From Lepus europaeus (Eukaryota; Chordata; Mammalia; Lagomorpha; Leporidae), in NCBI RefSeq assembly GCF_033115175.1, contig NC_084844.1, positions 30,847,885 through 30,911,884 of the forward strand: a DNA stretch of 64,000 nt, given 5' to 3'. The notes under the pieces were generated by a model that did no database searches, had not been told where the DNA came from, and saw nothing but the letters and a program-made list of their open reading frames with translations. This document shows positions 8,960 through 59,182 of this stretch, piece by piece. The translations under genes were made by a program, and so were the position numbers. The stretch's first letter is position 1, and every line of letters begins with the position of its first letter.

Positions 8960-9335
8960 GCACCACCCTGCTTAAAGCTTCCTATTGGTTTCTCACTGCT
9001 CTTGGACTAAGATCCAAGTTCCTGGTGATGGCAGTGGCCTGCCGGGCTCCGCCCGAGCCAATACCTGCATCTTTCCCGACCTCATTCCCTGCTGGGGTCT
9101 CCATAGCTCATCGCCTTCCCGCACCCCCAGCCTGGGCAGACTTGACCTTGCCCTGGAGAAAAGGTCTTTCCTGGCTTGGGCCTTTGCCAGATATTGCACT
9201 TTGCCTGGAACGATTTCCTGTTGGCTGTTCCTGTGGCTGACTCATGTTTTACCTTCACGTTTCAACTCAAGTATCTCCAGAGAGAGGAGGCTTGTAGCTG
9301 GCCCTGGCTATTTCCTCCATATGGTTCTTATCACA
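8960..9335 (+). mobile_element. L2 LINE 3' remnant, donor of the 10.0-kb insertion
   Basis: The order TTTCTCACTGCTCTTGGACT, CCTCATTCCCTG, GGGCCTTTGCCAG, CTTTGCCTGGAACG and CTCAAGTATCTCCAGAGAG follows the L2 3' region. Positions 9070-9192 were copied to 10038-10160. Confidence 0.75.
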
Positions 9336-9774: not shown

Positions 9775-10041
9775 GTAAAGATGCTCCTGCTCTATACCTG
9801 GAACATGGACTCAATAGGTATTTAATAAGTATTGACAAAATGCATGAGTTGACCAGGTTTTCTACACCAGGTTGACTGAGGAATTACTATACATTCCTAC
9901 AGAAAGGATCCAAGACTTTGTTTCCTCTGGAACATTCACAAAGGCTCTGAGCAGTTCTAAGAAAACACTTCAACAAACCTAACATTCCTCAAGCATGTTG
10001 GACGCCCATCCTTTTGTCCAAGAATTTTTACAAATATTCTT

Positions 10042-10161
10042 TCCCGACCTCATTCCCTGCTGGGGTCTCCATAGCTCATCGCCTTCCCGCACCCCCAGCC
10101 TGGGCAGACTTGACCTTGCCCTGGAGAAAAGGTCTTTCCTGGCTTGGGCCTTTGCCAGATG
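10042..10161 (+). mobile_element. Templated insertion of upstream L2 sequence with target-site duplication
   Basis: Positions 10038-10160 are identical, base for base, to 9070-9192 (123 bases, offset 968). The donor is embedded in a longer L2-like remnant. The copy is abruptly flanked on both sides by TTTACAAATATTCTT (10027-10041 and 10162-10176), a 15-bp target-site duplication. There is no poly(A). The copy is therefore an insertion made from the nearby template, not a tandem duplication. Perfect identity in neutral DNA implies it is recent. Confidence 0.85.
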
Positions 10162-10176
10162 TTTACAAATATTCTT

Positions 10177-57612: not shown

Positions 57613-57707
57613 GTACACAGTGTGTGCAGTGTACAGTGTTCAGTGTGCAGTGTTGCTGTGTGCAGTGTGTGCAGTGTGCAGTGCATGCTATGTGCATTGT
57701 GCACTGC
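57612..57707. repeat. GT-rich left arm, complementary in composition to the minisatellite
   Basis: The plus strand is GTGCAGTGTG-rich and switches at about 57700 to the CA-rich array. Words such as GCAGTGTGTGCAGTG are the inverse complement of CACTGCACACACTGC-like words in the array, so foldback pairing across the junction is possible. Confidence 0.6.
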
Positions 57708-58145
57708 AACACTGCACACACCACACACCTCACACTGCACACACCGCACATTGTACATGGCACACACTGCACATGGCAACACTGCACACACCACACACCT
57801 CACACTGCACACACCGCACATTGTACATGGCACACACTGCACGTGGCAACACTGCACACACCACACACCTCACACTGCACACACCGCACATTGTACATGG
57901 CACACACTGCACGTGGCAACACTGCACACACCACACACCTCACACTGCACACACTGCACATTGTACATGGCACACACTGCACGTGGCAACACTGCACACA
58001 CCACACACCTCACACTGCACACACCGCACATTGTACATGGCACACACTGCACGTGGCAACACTGCACACACCACACACCTCACACTGCACACACCGCACA
58101 TTGTACATGGCACACACTGCACGTGGCAACACTGCACACACTGAA
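57708..58145. repeat. 70-bp CA-rich minisatellite, six full copies
   Basis: Units begin at 57708, 57778, 57848, 57918, 57988 and 58058, exactly 70 bases apart, with a partial seventh at 58128. Each unit starts AACACTGCACACACC and contains TTGTACATGGCACACACTGC. Copies differ at very few sites: copy 1 has ACATGGC where later copies have ACGTGGC, and copy 4 has a T in CACTGCACATT. The unit length is not a multiple of three and no unit frame holds a stop, so long spurious open frames run through the array on both strands. Confidence 0.95.
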
Positions 58146-58236: not shown

Positions 58237-59182
58237 GTTCTGTGTTTTTGAGTATATTTTGTGTGTCTTTGTTTTTGTGTTGTGCTTGTCTGTTGTATTT
58301 GTCTCTTGTGTGTGTTTGTGTGTGCTTGTGTGTTGTGTGTTGTGCTTGTGTGTTATGTTTGTGTGCGTTGTGTCTGTGTGTATTGTGTGTGTGTGTTGGT
58401 GTGTGTGCATTTGTTTTTGTTGTGTGTGTTGTGTTTTTGTGTGTTGTGTGTTTTGTGTGTTTGTGTGTTGTGCATTGTGTATTTTTGTGTTGTGTGTGTT
58501 GTGTTTATGTGTTGTGTGTTGTGTTTTTGTTGTGTGTTTGTGCTTGTGAATTGTGTTTGTGTTGTGTGTATTGTGTGTTTGTGTATTTTTGTGTTGTGTT
58601 GTGTTTGTGTTGTGTGTGATGTGTCTGTTGTGTTTGTATTTGTGTGTTGTGTTTGTGTGTTTTTTTGTGTGCTATGTGTGTGTTTTATGTTGTGGGTATT
58701 GTGTGTTTTTCTGTGTGTGTTGTGTGAATGCTTGTTTTGTGTTTGTGTGTTGTGAGTTTTTGTGTACATTGTTTTTTTGTGTGTGTACTGTGAGTTGTGT
58801 TTTTGTGTCGTGTGTGTGCTTATTTTGTGTTGCATTTTTGTGTGTTTGTGTGTTGTGTGTGTGCTTGTTTTGTGTTTTTGTATGTGCTTACTGTGTGTGC
58901 ATTTGTTTTTGTGTTGTTTTTGTGTTTGTGTGTTGTGTGTTATGTGTATTTGTGTGTTATGTGTGGGTGTGTTGTTTTTGTGTGTTGTCTGTGTATTTTT
59001 GTGTGTGCATTTGTTTTTGTTGTGTGTTTTTGTGTGTGTGTTGTGTGTGTTTTATGTTTTCTGTTTTGTGTTGTGTGTGTTTGTGTGTTGTGTGCTTTTG
59101 TGTGTGTGTTTGGGTGTTATGTGTGTTGTATTTTTGTGTGATTGTATGTTTTGTTTGTGTCTGTGTGTGTTGTGTGTCTTAA
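58237..59182. repeat. GT-rich imperfect satellite of TGTGTGTTTTTGTG-like words
   Basis: About 950 bases in which the plus strand is nearly only G and T, built from GTGTTGTG, TTTTTGTGTG and TGTGTGCTTGT words without a fixed period. Cysteine/valine-rich open frames up to 209 residues cross it and are artefacts of TGT/GTG codons. The sharp end is at CTTAACACGG. Confidence 0.9.

Follow-up and report, generated by a model that had tools for sequence, protein, structure and literature searches.

An exact local copy flanked by a 15-bp target-site duplication in Lepus europaeus, most likely a proximal repair-mediated duplication

Known classes of locally copied DNA

Templated insertions and patch-mediated duplications consist of copied DNA at break sites, accompanied by microhomology or by a flanking duplication. 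Templated insertions from distant DNA were reportedly described by Onozawa in 2014, and patch-mediated short duplications are said to have been described by Vaughn and Bennetzen, also in 2014. Doublets, as Thomas et al. reportedly defined them in 2004, are short exact local duplications of the same polarity, 25-100 bp long and spaced near 1 kb, and target-site duplication is said not to be discussed in that work. By this definition (an exact same-strand pair near 1 kb apart), the pair described here is a doublet, with 123/123 identical bases at a distance of 968 bp, although the reported length range makes doublets slightly shorter than the present copy.

Repair-mediated duplications (RDs) were described by Pace, Sen, Batzer and Feschotte in 2009, who counted 1,136 human duplicons with one donor (PMC2671141). 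The donor was located within 5 kb of the copy in 824 of these duplicons and within 3 kb in 753, or two thirds of the total. Proximal RDs have a mean length of 162 bp and a median of 147 bp; a poly(A/T) tail was present in 0/39 inspected proximal RDs and in 17/29 distant ones. Target-site duplications were reported in six of the 39 proximal cases, three of them combined with microhomology, two with microhomology and filler, and one with filler and a deletion, and the sizes given are 4-21 nt for the target-site duplication, 2-9 nt for the microhomology and 1-68 nt for the filler. Seven human-specific RDs were identical to their donor; among ten that were genotyped, one proved polymorphic. RDs occur in all ten vertebrates tabled (human, other primates, mouse, rat, dog, cow, chicken and zebrafish), a table that includes no lagomorph, and the doublets of Thomas et al. 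are regarded by the same authors as probably the same thing (PMC2671141).

Tailless retropseudogenes (PMC5322556) likewise combine a target-site duplication with the lack of an oligo(A) tail and with priming by complementarity at the break. The 15-bp duplication of the present locus falls within the 8-35 nt given for them. However, their sources are defined cellular RNAs and their insertion site is TT/WAAAAWWX (PMC5322556), whereas this site is absent from the present locus and the donor is situated in cis, 968 bp away.

The duplicated pair and its junctions

The window (the whole stretch of 64,000 nucleotides that was analysed) contains a pair of identical segments on the same strand. According to a window-wide exact-match comparison, positions 10038-10160 equal positions 9070-9192 in 123/123 bases, with 968 bp from start to start; the pair may also be written as 125/126 bases, if the mismatch at its right end and the TT beyond it are counted. 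Longer exact same-strand matches in the window are found only between parts of a minisatellite at 57.7-58.1 kb. This minisatellite (57706-58141) is composed of a 70-bp unit in 6.2 copies with 99% matches and is rich in CACA/TGCA motifs; it is adjoined by a long irregular TG-rich array (58269-59177), which includes a 321-bp unit in 2.6 copies.

On either side of the copy near 10 kb stands an exact 15-bp direct repeat, TTTACAAATATTCTT, located at 10027-10041 on the left and at 10162-10176 on the right. Both are on the plus strand, and no further plus-strand occurrence exists in the window. A search for edge repeats at each of the two copies recovered this 15-mer at the copy near 10 kb, while at 9070-9192 no edge repeat exceeded 7 nt. 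Because the 15-bp duplication is confined to the segment near 10 kb, that segment is the new copy (the acceptor) and 9070-9192 is the donor. Two random positions of the window share 8 nt at a frequency of 5.3e-5, and a 15-nt match directly at the two ends of an exact copy of 123 bp excludes chance.

Within the acceptor, the templated insert comprises 119 bp (10042-10160, plus strand), identical to 9074-9192. It is preceded by a 4-nt microhomology, TCTT (10038-10041), which overlaps the left duplication and is common to the target site and to the first bases of the donor (9070-9073); a match of at least 4 nt occurs at a random junction in the window with a frequency of 0.005. At the right junction, G in the acceptor (10161) stands opposite A in the donor (9193), and the next two bases, TT, match again. 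As read from the alignment, this junction would represent either one filler base or one A-to-G substitution together with a 2-nt microhomology. If G is taken as filler, the event would have added 135 bp, namely 119 templated, one filler and 15 duplicated. No poly(A) was found on reading the sequence at either junction of the copy.

The presence of an exact copy with a flanking duplication is thereby confirmed. The initial annotation had reported the perfect match of the two segments, the bounding 15-bp target-site duplication and the lack of poly(A), and all three agree with the results above. Its statement that the 15-bp repeat is absent from the donor context does not hold in full: the last four bases of the repeat, TCTT, coincide with donor positions 9070-9073. 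The microhomology and the filler base are features that it did not mention.

Copy number was examined in the animal's own assembly (2.93 Gb, 649 contigs), where all counts are lower bounds. The insert has at least two places in this genome (two candidates were scored), and a query of 728 bp around the donor also matched at least two places, itself and the copy, at E up to 10. For either flank of the acceptor, left or right, at least one place was found, with no other match at E up to 10. When the whole region served as query, the only other match was to a dispersed repeat at about 9.4-9.8 kb, among the 40 candidates scored out of 5,611. The 23-mer that joins the duplication to the right flank occurs once in the assembly, at the filled site; neither this 23-mer nor the flank searches (E up to 10) revealed a separate empty allele or a paralogous empty site in the assembly. 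We infer that the copy was inserted, in which case the empty allele would be expected to read TTTACAAATATTCTT once and then GGGAATAG, with an unaltered donor. Segmental or tandem duplication is ruled out by the single flanks and by the copy's own target-site duplication, and no duplication of the acceptor flanks as a segment was seen in the genome search (E up to 10).

The donor itself resembles L2 and may be a copy of this old dispersed repeat, as the initial annotation assumed. No further relatives of it were obtained with the 728-bp query across the whole genome at E up to 10, or with 7-base words across 264 kb, both searches being too weak for a repeat diverged by 25-30%.

Probable repair of a staggered break and alternative origins

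The locus agrees with proximal RDs in four of their defining properties. The donor lies 968 bp away, within 5 kb and more than 50 bp from the acceptor; acceptor and donor are the only two places found for the sequence in 2.93 Gb, counted as lower bounds; the insert of 119-123 bp exceeds 50 bp and each flank was found at one place; and the breakpoints have a 4-nt microhomology, a 1-nt filler and a 15-bp duplication in place of poly(A/T). All of these values are inside the ranges given in the published survey (PMC2671141). One difference is that the published RDs were found inside interrupted transposable elements (PMC2671141), while the present locus was identified without an interrupted element. 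Judged on its sequence, it is most likely a proximal RD of the type that combines microhomology, target-site duplication and filler, a class already in print.

The copy very probably arose when a break with 3' overhangs of 15 nt underwent synthesis-dependent repair primed at a microhomology, which yields a repair-mediated duplication; the route would be either synthesis-dependent strand annealing or a template switch during microhomology-primed end joining. The initial lesion would have been a double-strand break in the germline or a pair of offset nicks, in which the two strands were cut 15 nt apart. The resulting 3' overhangs of 15 nt would have carried TTTACAAATATTCTT in the top strand on the left and the complementary sequence in the bottom strand on the right, each end thereby retaining the duplicated 15 bases. 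Ending in ...TTCTT, the left 3' end would then have annealed by four nucleotides (TCTT) to the minus strand of the donor, 968 bp upstream, and been extended by 119 nt; the new strand would have been released and would have gained one untemplated (or misincorporated) G; finally, it would have been joined to the other end, whose overhang still held the same 15 bases, and fill-in would have produced the 15-bp duplication.

In this model, the 3' overhang of the left top strand terminates with ...ATATTCTT-3', precisely at the 4-nt match to the donor. The microhomology thus sits where the 3' end of a 15-nt overhang would prime, which supports the repair reading. Extension over the donor minus strand predicts TCCCGACC...CCAGAT, and this is observed, on the same strand as the donor. 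Every feature of the locus is explained by a single priming event, a single run of synthesis and a single end joining. The 3' polarity of the overhangs, DNA as the template and the order of the steps are what we infer for the event. Against the repair reading, target-site duplications are a minority outcome among the inspected proximal cases (6/39), as opposed to most L1-driven insertions. The initial annotation had proposed a templated insertion into a staggered break; this is retained as the best reading, without the novelty that was implied, since such cases are already described in PMC2671141.

Tailless retroposition driven by L1 would also yield a duplication without poly(A). Here, the endonuclease would have cut the top strand behind TTCTT, and the 3' end thus released would have primed, by four nucleotides, within an antisense RNA of the donor. 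We consider this origin quite unlikely, although the duplication of 15 bp is inside the published L1 range of 8-30 nt, tailless insertions flanked by duplications are on record, and the microhomology is located at the end that would prime. The two inferred nicks, ATTCTT/GGGAAT on the top strand and TGTAAA/AATTCT on the bottom strand, each agree with TTTT/AA in three of six bases, a level that 22% of the positions in the window reach and that represents background. An inspection of the break for the L1 endonuclease consensus, as suggested in the initial annotation, therefore revealed no motif above background, and neither nick shows the endonuclease site TT/AAAA or resembles, in a comparison by eye, the TT/WAAAAWWX site published for tailless insertions (PMC5322556). 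Neither the junctions, read for poly(A), nor the two inferred nicks, compared with the endonuclease motif, gave a positive sign of L1. In addition, retroposition would put no limit on the distance between source and copy, yet donor and copy lie 968 bp apart here, on the same strand; the tail counts cited above, none in 39 proximal against 17 in 29 distant copies (PMC2671141), point the same way, and no transcript of the donor is known here. The earlier argument that missing poly(A) speaks against ordinary L1-driven retroposition is upheld and is now joined by the lack of an L1 motif.

A nascent local transcript (an R-loop or pre-mRNA) may have served as the repair template instead of DNA. It would account for the proximity of donor and copy as well as a DNA template does, and the sequence separates neither, as splicing, editing or a tail would not be expected in so short a slice. 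However, the product corresponds to the plus strand and was primed from the left, which would require a minus-strand transcript across 9070-9192, and DNA is the more economical template to assume; RNA need not be invoked, because the 4-nt left microhomology fits direct priming on donor DNA. We consider this source of the template very unlikely, and it is highly improbable that the copy represents RNA-templated chromosome repair in the mammalian germline, in which a break with 3' overhangs of 15 nt would have been filled by copying a nascent local RNA in cis. An assembly artefact is extremely improbable, even though the identity is complete (123/123) and the pair is known here from one assembly, since misassembly does not bound one of two copies with a 15-bp target duplication, a microhomology and an untemplated base.

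Other local copies, age and significance

Local same-sequence pairs were surveyed in 264 kb, comprising the window, 100 kb beside it and 50 kb from each of two other contigs, with exact matches of at least 20 nt, a distance of at most 6 kb and a median 14-mer count of at most 3. The survey returned 16 local pairs, 14 on the same strand and two on opposite strands; it gives no rate, since the window was chosen for the present finding and six of the 16 pairs were inspected. Two of these six are sharp isolated copies (the copy near 10 kb and a 65-bp pair), one is a near-tandem array, and three are looser and align over longer stretches, as older repeats do.

The 65-bp pair (L011:898-962 and L011:2523-2587) is located about 21-23 kb past the right end of the window; its members agree in 64/65 bases, lie on the same strand 1,625 bp apart, and have at least two places in the genome. 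The upstream copy, L011:898-962, interrupts a SINE-like repeat, which we take to be a lagomorph C repeat, and it is for this reason assigned as the acceptor. This pair suggests that a local repair-copy process acted elsewhere in the genome. An edge-repeat search found no target-site duplication at it, so that it gives no support to the staggered-overhang step.

Assuming 4.5e-9 to 2.2e-9 changes per site per year, 0/123 differences correspond to a 95% upper bound of 2.7-5.5 million years on the age of the copy. The initial annotation had taken the zero differences to mean a very recent event; they provide this upper bound and nothing beyond it, and the insertion may be polymorphic or fixed.

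No function is proposed for the duplication, which lies in non-coding DNA and is an ordinary event of a documented vertebrate kind. It adds one case, from a host outside the list of the main survey, and opens no new question. As a clean and recent-looking case, it allows the copy, the donor, the microhomology, the length of the overhang and the filler all to be read without a relative, and it belongs to the cases with a target-site duplication, a minority that is informative on whether local repair copies begin at 3' overhangs.
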